A DNA stretch of 64,000 nt from assembly GCA_016928915.1 (NCBI GenBank), contig JAFGJT010000009.1, forward strand, positions 124,347 through 188,346. The letters are read 5' to 3'. Source of the DNA: Candidatus Peregrinibacteria bacterium. Lineage in GTDB: Bacteria; Patescibacteriota; Gracilibacteria; UBA1369; PNNO01. Below are positions 20,239 to 54,629 of this stretch, piece after piece. The notes below the pieces were generated by a model. The model saw only the letters and a program-made list of their open reading frames with translations. It did not search any database and had not been told where the DNA came from. A program made the translations under genes and the position numbers. The stretch's first letter is position 1. Each line of letters starts with the position of its first letter.

Positions 20239-22155
<1,917 letters not shown>

Positions 22156-22171
22156 TAAATTAAAATATGCA

Positions 22172-22182
22172 GAAAGGGGGTG
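22172..22182 (+). promoter_or_regulatory. Extended Shine-Dalgarno sequence of rpsU
   Basis: GAAAGGGGGTG can pair over 11 consecutive positions (one G-U) with the 3' end CACCTCCTTTC of the 16S in this window; 7-nt spacing to ATG. Confidence 0.8.
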
Positions 22183-22189
22183 TTAACAA

Positions 22190-22393
22190 ATGATTACAGT
22201 TGTAAAAAACGATAAGGAATCTGTTGATCGTGTAATATCCAGATTCAATAAAAAGGTACAGGCTTCAAGAATTTTGCTTGTTGCGCGCGGAAAAAGATAC
22301 AGACAGAAACCCCTGAAAAAAAGGCTACAGAGAAAACGGGCCATTATGAGAGAACATTACCGCACGCAAAGAGAAAAAAAGCGTTTTGTCTAA
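22190..22393 (+). CDS. rpsU: Ribosomal protein bS21
   Basis: MITVVKNDKESVDRVISRFNKKVQASRIL...KKRLQRKRAIMREHYRTQREKKRFV. Confidence 0.93.
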   Translation: MITVVKNDKESVDRVISRFNKKVQASRILLVARGKRYRQKPLKKRLQRKRAIMREHYRTQREKKRFV

Positions 22394-22405
22394 CGAAAGT
22401 TTAAG

Positions 22406-22433
22406 CCGCATTAATACCAAATGCGGTTTTTTT
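22406..22433 (+). terminator. Intrinsic terminator after rpsU
   Basis: CCGCATT (22406-22412) / AATGCGG (22420-22426) stem followed by a 7-T run. Confidence 0.85.
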
Positions 22434-48739: not shown

Positions 48740-49924
48740 ACGGACAGGAGATATCTTTCTTAAATCTTCCACAACCTTCGGAAGCACTTTTAACAAATAT
48801 TCAATATCTTTCTTTGTTGTATATTTCCCGAGTGTAAATCTTATGCTGCCGTGCGCGATTTCGTAACTGTGACCGAGTGCAAGGATTACATGAGATGGGT
48901 CAAGTGAACCAGAAGTGCATGCTGATCCTGATGATGCAGCTATTCCCAACATATCGAGTCTTAGAAGCATAGCTTCGCCTTCGATATCCAGAATTGAAAC
49001 ATTTACATTATTCGGGAGTCTTTTTTCAGGATGGCCGTTTAATTGAACCTTTGGAATTTTTGCGAGAATTCCTTTTATTAACATATCGCGGAGGTCCGTT
49101 AGTCTTTTGTTTTCTTTTTCTTTGTCTTTTTGCGTCAGTTTTAAGGCTTCCGCAAGGCCTATGATTGCGGGTACATTTTCGGTGCCCGGCCTTAATCTTT
49201 TTTCCTGTTCGCCGCCGTACATTACGGGCCATATATTTGTATGTTTTCGTATATATAACACTCCGATTCCTTTCGGCCCGTAAATTTTTCCTCCGTTTAA
49301 AGTCATTAAATCCACAATTAATTTATCAACATTCATTTCGAGTGTTCCGGCTGCCTGACACGCATCGGTGTGAAAGGGGATTTGCTTGTTTTTGCAGTAC
49401 CTACCTATTTTCCATATCGGCTGTATTGTGCCGATTTCGTTATTTGCATACATAATTGAAACCAAAACAGTATCTTTGCGAATCGTTTTTTTAACTTCAT
49501 CCGGATTAATAATTCCGTCTTTATCGCAGTTAATATAAGTAACTTCAAAACCCTCCCTTTCGAGCTGTTCGCACGGATGAAGAACAGCATGATGCTCAAT
49601 TGTTGAAGTAATAATATGTTTTCCTTTATGAGCGTTTGCCCTTGCCGTCCCCAGAATTGCAATATTGTCGCTTTCGGTTCCGCCTGATGTAAAATAAATT
49701 TCTTCGGGAGAGCATCCCAGAATTTTTGCAATATCAACACGCGCTGTATCAACAGCGATTTTTGCGATCTGTCCGGACTGATGTATAGATGACGGATTGC
49801 CGAAATTCATAGTAAAAAAAGGCTCCATTTTTTTTAGAACCCGCGGATCGCACGGAGTTGTTGCCGCATAGTCGAAATATCTCATTTTGTTATTCTCCAT
49901 AGTACTGCATTTTATATTGTTCAA
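48734..49924 (-). CDS. nifS: Cysteine desulfurase (NifS/IscS family)
   Basis: MRYFDYAATTPCDPRV, EHHAVLHP, FHTDACQAAG, SSGSACTSGSLDPSHV. Start may be internal (MENNK or MRYFDY). Confidence 0.95.
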   Translation of the reverse strand: MNNIKCSTMENNKMRYFDYAATTPCDPRVLKKMEPFFTMNFGNPSSIHQSGQIAKIAVDTARVDIAKILGCSPEEIYFTSGGTESDNIAILGTARANAHKGKHIITSTIEHHAVLHPCEQLEREGFEVTYINCDKDGIINPDEVKKTIRKDTVLVSIMYANNEIGTIQPIWKIGRYCKNKQIPFHTDACQAAGTLEMNVDKLIVDLMTLNGGKIYGPKGIGVLYIRKHTNIWPVMYGGEQEKRLRPGTENVPAIIGLAEALKLTQKDKEKENKRLTDLRDMLIKGILAKIPKVQLNGHPEKRLPNNVNVSILDIEGEAMLLRLDMLGIAASSGSACTSGSLDPSHVILALGHSYEIAHGSIRFTLGKYTTKKDIEYLLKVLPKVVEDLRKISPVRL

Positions 49925-50579
49925 TCATCCTTTCAACGCGCGGCCTGCATGCGCCGCAGCCTGTTCCGGCTTTTGTTCTTTTCTGAATATCCTCGAATTT
50001 TTTACCGCCTTCGAGTACGGCATTTTCAATTTCGGTATTTGTAACATCAAGGCATCTGCAGATAATTTCCGATTTTTCCTTAATAATCCTGTGTTCTTGT
50101 TTGGATTTTCTAAAATAGTCATTTATTGCGGCTCGGATCGCTTTATCACCAAGCACGGAACAGTGTATTTTTTTGTCGGGAAGACCGGATAGTCTGTTTA
50201 CAATATCCTGCGGCGTTATTTTCATTGCGTCTTCCAGAGCCATTCCTCCTTTTTCGGTAACCATTATTGAAAGAATTGAAGTTGACGCTATTGCGGAGGC
50301 GCAGCCAAAAGTCTGCCATTTGCATTCCGCAATCGTATCCGTAAGTTTATCCACCTTAATCCATATTTTCATCATATCCCCGCATGCGGGACTGCCGACA
50401 TAACCTACACCATCGGCTTTATAGTTTTTCGGATTTTCTTGTAAAAGATTTTTCGGATTGAAAAAATGTTCTTTTACAGTGTCTGAATAAACCCAGCCCG
50501 CGCCATCCTGTTGGTTAGCGTGAGAATTATTTGAATTAGTCATAAATGTGGTTTCAGTTAACTTTAAACGATTTAACAA
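49890..50579 (-). CDS. nifU: NifU-type Fe-S scaffold: IscU-like domain plus C-terminal BFD-like [2Fe-2S] domain
   Basis: GSPACGDMM, TFGCASAIAS, HCSVLG (three scaffold Cys); C-terminal IICRCLDVT...AGTGCGACRPRVE. True start may be MTNSNNS (50543). Confidence 0.92.
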   Translation of the reverse strand: MLNRLKLTETTFMTNSNNSHANQQDGAGWVYSDTVKEHFFNPKNLLQENPKNYKADGVGYVGSPACGDMMKIWIKVDKLTDTIAECKWQTFGCASAIASTSILSIMVTEKGGMALEDAMKITPQDIVNRLSGLPDKKIHCSVLGDKAIRAAINDYFRKSKQEHRIIKEKSEIICRCLDVTNTEIENAVLEGGKKFEDIQKRTKAGTGCGACRPRVERMIEQYKMQYYGE

Positions 50580-51135
50580 TATTTTTCGCGTTTTCAGTAG
50601 TTACCCCGTCTGCATCGCTTCTGTATGCGGCTGTTGCCGTGTATGCGTCAACGCCGTTTACAGCATATACCTGAATTAATCTGATTAAAGGATCTTGGGC
50701 GCTTTCTTTGCCCTCAAACATTATTAGCATTGATTTGTTCATTTTTCCGCCAATTAAAACATTAAACTCAGTGTCCCTTGAGATTTCTTTATAATTAACC
50801 AGAGATTTTTGGTTTTCAAGTATTTCGGATTTTGCAAAATCCACACTGCTCATGCCGGTTTTAAGTATTTTTTTTGTAACATTCGCGTTTTCGGTAAATA
50901 CATCACTTTTAATGTTGTTTCTAAAAATAACCTGTGTTTCTATGGGTATTTCTTTTGAGAAATCTTTGGCTTCTATTATTTCCCACGAGTTAGGAACACT
51001 TATTGAAAAGGTTGATGCGTTATATGTTTTAAAGTTTTTCAGATCAGCTGTCTGACCGGCATTATCTCCGCCTCCGAAACATCCCGTAAAAACCAACAGA
51101 CTTATTAATGAGCTTAAAAGGATTGCTTTTTTCAT
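50554..51135 (-). CDS. Lipoprotein, unknown function
   Basis: Signal plus lipobox LLVFTGC. Confidence 0.75.
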   Translation of the reverse strand: MKKAILLSSLISLLVFTGCFGGGDNAGQTADLKNFKTYNASTFSISVPNSWEIIEAKDFSKEIPIETQVIFRNNIKSDVFTENANVTKKILKTGMSSVDFAKSEILENQKSLVNYKEISRDTEFNVLIGGKMNKSMLIMFEGKESAQDPLIRLIQVYAVNGVDAYTATAAYRSDADGVTTENAKNIVKSFKVN

Positions 51136-51229
51136 GCTGAATTGTTATTTGCACCAGTATTTTACCCGATTTTTTTACATAATCAACTAAACATTGATTT
51201 TTATGAAAATCTACATATGATATACGCAT

Positions 51230-52150
51230 ATGAAAATTGGAATTTTACATTTTAAACCCGCTCCGACTCTGCGTTCAAGAAGGCTTCCTTCTGACGTTAA
51301 GATGCTCCGCAATGCTGTTAAGGAACTGGGGCATACACCTAAAGTTATTGCCGAAGACAAATGCCAGCTTTATTATACCCGCCATCATGCAAAAGTTTTA
51401 TATGCAGGGAAACCGTTTCCTAAAGTTGATATAATTATTCCCAGAGTTTCATTATTGAATAATGTGGGGCTTCACGCTTCAATTCTTGCGCAGTTTCAAC
51501 TGCAGGGAATACCGGTTTTGCAGAGTTACAAATCGGTTTTACGAGCTAAAAACAAATTAAGAACCCTTCAGTTTTTAAGTAAAAATTCTATACCGGTTCC
51601 AATAACAATTGTTGTAAAACGTTTTGAATTTCTTGATGTTGCCATCAGAAAAGTCGGAGGATTTCCGATTATTATTAAAACTCCTTTCGGCTCTCTTGGT
51701 AAAGGAGTGGCGATTGTTGAAAGCAAACGCGCAATGCACAGCGCGTTTGATCTTTTGCTCACCAGCCCCGATTTTTCATCTTTGTTAATTCAGGAATATG
51801 TAGAAGAAGCTGCCGGAAAAGATTTAAGGGCTTTTGTTATCGGAGGAAAAGTTGTCGCGGCCATGCAGAGAAACGCGCAGGGCGATGAATTCAGGTCCAA
51901 TTTGGCTCAGGGAGGAGTAGGGAATTCCATAAAATTAACAGATGAGGAAGAAAGAATTTCTTTGGCTGCCGCAGAAGCGCTAAAGCTTGATTTTGCGGGC
52001 GTTGATTTATTACGTACCAATAAAGGGCCTGTTGTAATGGAGGTAAACTGCAATCCGGGTCTTGAGGGAATAACCGAAGTTACGGGTAAAGATATTGCAA
52101 AAAAACTTATAAAATACGCTGTTTCAATAGTTGAAAAACGCAACAAGTAA
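51230..52150 (+). CDS. RimK-like ATP-grasp ligase
   Basis: ATP-grasp motifs FPIIIKTPFGSLGKGV, AFVIGGKVVAAMQR, FAGVDLLRTNKGPVVMEVNCNPGLEGI. Confidence 0.9.
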   Translation: MKIGILHFKPAPTLRSRRLPSDVKMLRNAVKELGHTPKVIAEDKCQLYYTRHHAKVLYAGKPFPKVDIIIPRVSLLNNVGLHASILAQFQLQGIPVLQSYKSVLRAKNKLRTLQFLSKNSIPVPITIVVKRFEFLDVAIRKVGGFPIIIKTPFGSLGKGVAIVESKRAMHSAFDLLLTSPDFSSLLIQEYVEEAAGKDLRAFVIGGKVVAAMQRNAQGDEFRSNLAQGGVGNSIKLTDEEERISLAAAEALKLDFAGVDLLRTNKGPVVMEVNCNPGLEGITEVTGKDIAKKLIKYAVSIVEKRNK

Positions 52151-52168
52151 GGTTTGTATCTTGATGAT

Positions 52169-52792
52169 TTATCTTTTTTCGATAATCATATCAATAATAC
52201 CGTATTTTTTAGCCTGTTCAGCGCTCATAAAGTTATCCCTGTCCGTATCTCTCTCGATCAGTTTAAGCTGCTGACCGGTGTGTTTTGCAAGCAGTTTGTT
52301 TAAGCGTTCTTTGGTTTTCAGAATATGATCCGCGTGAATTCGTATATCTGATGCCTGACCTTCAATTCCGCCCAAAGGCTGGTGAATCATTATTTCGGAA
52401 TTCGGCAGAGCAAATCTTTTGCCTTTTTCTCCACCTGCAAGCAGAACCGCTCCCATTGACGCGGCCATTCCCACACAGACTGTTGAAACATACGGTTTTA
52501 TAAGCTGCATTGTGTCGTAAATTGCAAGTCCCGCGGTTACATGTCCGCCCGGGGAATGAATATATAGCGTGATATCCTTGTCAGAATCCTGATTTTCAAG
52601 GAATAACAGCTGCGCTATCACGTTATTTGCCACAGCATCGTTAATTGCAGATCCAAGAAAAATTATTCTATCCTTTAAAAGTCTTGAATAAATATCATAC
52701 GCTCTTTCACCCGCGGTTGTTTTTTCAATAACAGTCGGAATTAAGATGCTTGACGTAGAAGGTAAAACTTTTTTAGAATCTTTTTTGTTCAT
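52169..52792 (-). CDS. clpP: ATP-dependent Clp protease proteolytic subunit
   Basis: [36 protein letters not shown] (Ser), [10 protein letters not shown] (His). Confidence 0.97.
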
Positions 52793-52874
52793 GGTGAATT
52801 TGTTTTAAGGGTTAACGTTTTTAATCACTTCTTATATTGTACCAAAAATCATGAAAAAAATCTTATAAAATCCC

Positions 52875-52904
52875 TTGACTTCCTTTTTACCATTACATTA
52901 AAAT
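52875..52904 (+). promoter_or_regulatory. Probable 16S rRNA promoter
   Basis: TTGACT (52875-52880), 17-18 nt spacer, TTAAAAT (-10-like). Confidence 0.6.
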
Positions 52905-52927
52905 AAGCGAGCATTTTTGAACGAATA

Positions 52928-52942
52928 TGTTCTTTAACATTT
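52928..52942 (+). promoter_or_regulatory. boxA-like antitermination element in the 16S leader
   Basis: TGTTCTTTAACATTT, close to the bacterial rrn boxA (TGCTCTTTAACA). Confidence 0.6.
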
Positions 52943-53043
52943 AGGGTGTAATAGAGAAACCTGTTTATTTTAATTGTTTATTTGTTTATTTAGCCAACGG
53001 CAATTACCAATTTATTGGTATTGTCGTAACTTCATAAATTTTT

Positions 53044-54508
<1,465 letters not shown>

Positions 54509-54629
54509 TAGGGAGATGAATGAACCTCTTACTTAATTGAAAGATGAGTTCTATATGGTTGAGAGTCCTTTTTAGGACTTGGTTTCTCTATTACGCTCTG
54601 GATGTTAAAAACATTAAAAAAGCAAAAAC

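Follow-up and report, generated by a model that had tools for sequence, protein, structure and literature searches.

An extended Shine-Dalgarno sequence of rpsU and probable bS21 autoregulation in a Peregrinibacterium

The rpsU locus

The window analysed here is a stretch of 64,000 nucleotides from a genome of 1.13 Mb (20 contigs, 38% GC), and its host is a Peregrinibacterium (Patescibacteria/CPR), not a member of Bacteroidota. On the forward strand, rpsU (22190..22393), encoding ribosomal protein bS21 of 67 amino acids, lies downstream of gyrB (20242..22155, forward strand; gene name according to the first-pass annotation), the product of which has the C-terminus NVKNLDI. The gyrB-rpsU gene order is seen in only 5 of 70 genomes when searched with a crude motif. 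The rpsU product matches Pfam PF01165 with an E-value of 1.3e-4 and 22.1 bits, under the curated cut-off of 27, and the ORF is assigned to bS21 on the basis of this match together with clear homologues in relatives (recovered in 37 of 40, with 55-72% identity between the proteins) and weak hits to bS21 structures in PDB. Its nearest named relatives are from Candidatus Peregrinibacteria and Patescibacteria MAGs. Genes for bS21, bS18 and bS6 are all found in the host genome. The strong terminator that had been noticed just past rpsU is present on the same strand at 22403..22429, where a 10-pair stem is followed by a T run (fold z-score -3.84). On the 5' side, TATAAT (22151..22156, forward strand) overlaps the gyrB stop codon and starts at -39 from the ATG; as the -10 box of rpsU it would possibly give a leader of ~27 nt, and no -35 hexamer for this putative promoter passed the consensus scan.

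The rpsU leader has the sequence AAAATATGCAGAAAGGGGGTGTTAACAAATG, in which an extended Shine-Dalgarno (SD) element, AGAAAGGGGGTG (22171..22182, forward strand), is separated from the ATG at 22190 by a spacer of 7 nt, TTAACAA. Its partner is the anti-SD in the 3' tail of 16S rRNA, CACCTCCTTTCT (54498..54509, forward strand), at the end of a gene identified by an RF00177 match at 53043-54507; the 16S gene of the window terminates in GGATCACCTCCTTTCT. An 11-position pairing of GAAAGGGGGTG (22172-22182) had been claimed earlier, and it extends even to 12 since A22171 pairs too: AGAAAGGGGGTG and CACCTCCTTTCT form 12 consecutive pairs, one of them G-U, if mature 16S rRNA extends to position 1544. 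The duplex of the element against UCACCUCCUUUCU is calculated at -19.3 kcal/mol.

Standing of rpsU in the host genome

SD strength was scored genome-wide at 895 starts out of 899 genes from a simple codon model with home-made gene starts, where rpsU was entered by hand because it is too short for the gene caller. With -19.3 kcal/mol, rpsU ranks first of the 895 starts over the whole 1.13 Mb. The next native called start is at -10.7 and resembles a spurious ORF, and within the window the second-best scored start is merely at -7.5. A few uncalled short ORFs reach -13.9 to -15.3 (best, -15.3), which is not surprising given 1822 arbitrary candidate starts. As a composition control, every leader was dinucleotide-shuffled (20 rounds of 891 leaders); none of the shuffled leaders reaches -19, the best being -16.1. 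Native leaders other than that of rpsU are as frequent as shuffling predicts, both at -5 or below (52 observed vs 54 expected) and at -8 or below (8 observed vs 8.4 expected). "SD-less" as applied to the other genes of this host means an SD match at chance level, from which rpsU alone departs. No SD is visible by eye for rpsF or rpsR. Active avoidance of SDs was suggested by a comparison with mock windows and is gone after dinucleotide shuffling of leaders, the matches being fewer than in mock windows because the leaders are AT-rich.

The earlier statement that rpsU alone carries a strong SD can be extended from the window to the genome, in that no other native called gene is comparable, and many equally strong SDs elsewhere were not found among the 895 starts. 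Strong SDs besides that of rpsU are just two, at 48838-53331 and 53391-54629 of contig C16, and these are treated as exceptions because both belong to an island of 62% GC whose content is unrelated. This island, a 7-kb segment of ~62% GC in a 38% GC genome (G000, contig C16, 47-55 kb, locus L059, outside the window), encodes a 1498-aa ECDDGN-repeat protein; from its sequence it would be either horizontally acquired or a chimeric assembly.

Distribution of the rpsU element among relatives

The relatives are represented by draft MAGs with unmapped 16S 3' ends. An rpsU SD, at -15.6 to -20.0, is carried by each of the seven genomes sampled within the family, and close relatives devoid of it, which would have contradicted the first-pass annotation, were not found among them. 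Over the order, where a pairing of -11 or better is counted as SD-positive, rpsU leaders are divided into 44 with the SD and 26 without it (70 in total), no value lying between -11 and -7; pairing at or below -13 kcal/mol is found in 38 of the 70, in a minority of which the genome-wide rank was tested. The element is kept across the order while the flanking leader sequence diverges widely. Eleven relatives in the order (50-123 genes each) are SD-poor with or without an rpsU SD. Beyond the order, an rpsU SD of -14 to -22 occurs in many other Patescibacteria, and the element probably predates the order. Ten Patescibacteria sampled there include SD-poor genomes (G155, G158, G125) and SD-using ones (G133, G140, G093), and in SD-using G140 the rpsU SD itself is just -8.2. 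In G009, G020, G033 and G043, three of which are rated 99-100% complete, a search for bS21 gave no match even at E <= 10, and the 16S tails are mostly missing from the assemblies.

The position of TATAAT differs with the state of the SD. In 70 rpsU leaders, with related genomes mixed, its start lies at a median of 51 nt before the ATG in SD-positive genomes and 30 nt in SD-negative ones, between which the host rpsU (-39) is intermediate. Across the genes of the host at large, the peak position of TATAAT is -26 to -35, and many of them seem, as judged from this position, to have leaders of just ~12-22 nt. Since TATAAT is ~20 nt closer in SD-negative genomes, rpsU genes that lost the SD have turned into ordinary short-leader genes.

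Covariation with the 16S tail and joint loss

Changes in the 16S tail are often answered in the rpsU SD. The tail is UCAUCUCC (C1535U) in G044 and G045, the SD of which, GGGGAUGA, has A facing U1535; it is UUACCUCC (C1533U) in G066, G068, G072 and G073, where the SD contains GGUAA or GGUAG with A facing U1533. The compensatory G-to-A change is found in 4 of the 5 SD-positive genomes with C1533U and in both with C1535U, the exception being G026 (U1533), in which rpsU pairing ends short of position 1533. The base facing C1533 is G in 26 of 28 genomes, and that facing C1535 is G in 31 of 31. By taxonomy, at least three compensations are independent (f2, f13, f14). The covariation score, from a formal pair count over 24 distinct SD-tail pairs all selected for having an SD, is 0.200 vs 0.162 when shuffled; 0 of 500 shuffles are as high, and every slid register gives a lower value. 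As far as comparison of the two RNAs goes, the rpsU-16S pairing is real.

The core of the anti-SD is eroded to CUCU or AUCUCU in eight genomes (f13: G018, G029, G063; f14: G037, G058; f15: G031, G076, G077), in none of which rpsU shows an SD, whether scored against the genome's own tail or against the canonical one. They belong to f13 g17, f14 g32 and f15, while the sister genera f13 g50 and f14 g18 retain both SD and core, and erosion of the core without an rpsU SD is found in at least three separate lineages. An intact AUCACCUCC tail is present in 22 of 33 SD-positive vs 0 of 17 SD-negative genomes (Fisher 2.4e-6 by genome and 3.6e-4 by genus, phylogeny being handled only by genus collapsing). 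Nine SD-negative genomes retain a pairing-competent core, so that SD loss apparently precedes anti-SD loss, and from this pattern rpsU pairing appears to be the main factor preserving the anti-SD.

Nothing of the anti-SD is left in family f16, where GGAACATTCCC stands in its place. The f16 genomes G021 and G032 (L276, L277, L280, L281) have both a replaced 16S 3' end, GGAACATTCCCTTATAGGGG, and a bS21 without the C-terminal tail. The 16S tail is missing from the assembly in 20 rpsU-bearing genomes; a relaxed-pattern search recovered two f16 genomes only, and the remaining tails are probably not assembled. Two different 16S 3' ends lie within the G052 MAG (contigs C40 and C16), which suggests contamination from another family.

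A possible autoregulatory loop and rival explanations

In Bacteroidota, the 16S tail is sequestered in a pocket of bS21, bS18 and bS6, and in Bacteroidia Tyr54 of bS21 stacks on A1534 to redirect the tail. We regard it as likely, by analogy with Flavobacterium, that bS21-less ribosomes preferentially make bS21 in this Peregrinibacterium. In such a loop, rpsU would be the one native gene whose start is selected by extended mRNA-16S pairing. On the complete 30S subunit, the 16S tail would be unavailable or unneeded, and most mRNAs would be initiated SD-independently, on leaders that are short and AT-rich. On a 30S subunit without bS21, the tail would be free to pair with the 12-nt rpsU element, leading to preferential translation of rpsU. 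bS21 would in this way be produced when missing, and the loop would turn off once subunits are completed. An analogous loop had been proposed in the first-pass annotation, and it is supported by the pairing as read from sequence, by the near-uniqueness, conservation and covariation of this pairing, and by the finding that the anti-SD core has decayed only in genomes without the rpsU SD; the hiding of the anti-SD by bS21, and the feedback itself, we infer from the Flavobacterium case. Against it, the residue aligned to Tyr54 of F. johnsoniae is Met or Lys; a Tyr or Phe sits a few residues downstream. Any anti-SD occlusion must therefore differ in detail from that in Bacteroidia. The loop would also be dispensable, because bS21 persists where the rpsU SD was lost.

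The same element might simply confer constitutively strong translation on rpsU, with the anti-SD always free and feedback absent. Pairing by itself accounts for the covariation, and a strong rpsU SD is also found in some Patescibacteria with general SD use, such as G133 and G093, where the logic of the loop is weaker. However, a free anti-SD should serve other highly expressed genes, and no other native called gene makes use of it, rpsF and rpsR being without an SD by eye; nor does constitutive translation explain why the exception is bS21, the protein adjoining the anti-SD. Such an arrangement is unlikely in our view.

More doubtful still is a relic: the ancestors of the order would have been SD-using Patescibacteria, and the SD of rpsU would merely be the one lost last, without any regulatory role. 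The phylum-wide occurrence of rpsU SDs would fit such a history, as would the several losses of the SD in the order with apparently later decay of the anti-SD, but the compensatory changes with 16S rRNA, which hold up in simple counts, and the helices of 9-12 pairs in many families imply continued selection, and a relic would not fall on the same gene every time. The purine-rich composition of the element might also suggest a binding site for a protein or RNA, or a chance match, in place of a ribosome-binding site; its placement 7 nt ahead of the ATG, the way it covaries with the 16S tail in particular genomes and the absence of any shuffled leader as strong make this hardly credible.

Returning to the autoregulatory loop, a wider proposal can be framed for Patescibacteria, in which bS21 autoregulates via a solitary extended SD independently of Bacteroidota, the anti-SD being hidden by other means; this gene would be the main reason why the anti-SD core survives, and loss of the SD would be followed by that of the anti-SD and, in f16, also of the bS21 C-terminal tail. 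Our judgement of this whole proposal is evenly balanced. That the host is a CPR bacterium and not a member of Bacteroidota makes the case of rpsU more interesting. If the loop is true, specialised bS21-less ribosomes would exist beyond Bacteroidota, in one of the largest uncultivated bacterial groups; it would suggest a reason for an anti-SD to be retained by an SD-poor bacterium at all, namely that one gene requires it, and the repeated natural losses of the rpsU SD would become test cases for this idea of anti-SD retention.

Comparison with known systems

Autoregulation of bS21 in Flavobacterium johnsoniae was reportedly described by Jha et al. in 2021. The self-repair loop of bS21 has until now been reported only for Bacteroidota, and an open-access literature search returned nothing on rpsU SDs, or on the regulation of bS21, for Patescibacteria. 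Ca. Peribacter riflensis, a member of Peregrinibacteria, is listed among SD-scarce organisms without CCUCC (PMC10783764); f13 g17, f14 g32 and f15 resemble the organisms of that list in being SD-scarce with a degenerate anti-SD, and the available portion of that paper draws no connection between anti-SD loss in Peregrinibacteria and loss of the rpsU SD.

The rpsU architecture of F. johnsoniae has been shown experimentally to be autoregulatory, bS21-deficient 30S subunits favouring rpsU (McNutt et al., 2023, PMC9976891), and it is through its C-terminal tail that bS21 contacts the 16S tail there (PMC9976891). The Peregrinibacteria resemble it in that the genome is SD-poor with rpsU as the single clear SD, and in that the helix has 9-13 pairs and is stronger than -13 kcal/mol. 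As in Flavobacteriales, in which changes in the rpsU SD compensate for the anti-SD variant UCUCA (PMC8710568), anti-SD variants in Peregrinibacteria are accompanied by rpsU SDs with compensatory changes. In contrast to F. johnsoniae, they belong to an unrelated phylum (Patescibacteria) and have a bS21 without Tyr54, and in several of their lineages the rpsU SD and the anti-SD core are both gone. In all Chlorobia, which the same paper groups within Bacteroidota, rpsU qualifies by the standards set there despite the absence of Tyr54 (PMC9976891). Peregrinibacteria share with them an rpsU SD in the absence of Tyr54, although they are placed in Patescibacteria and not, as Chlorobia are, in Bacteroidota.
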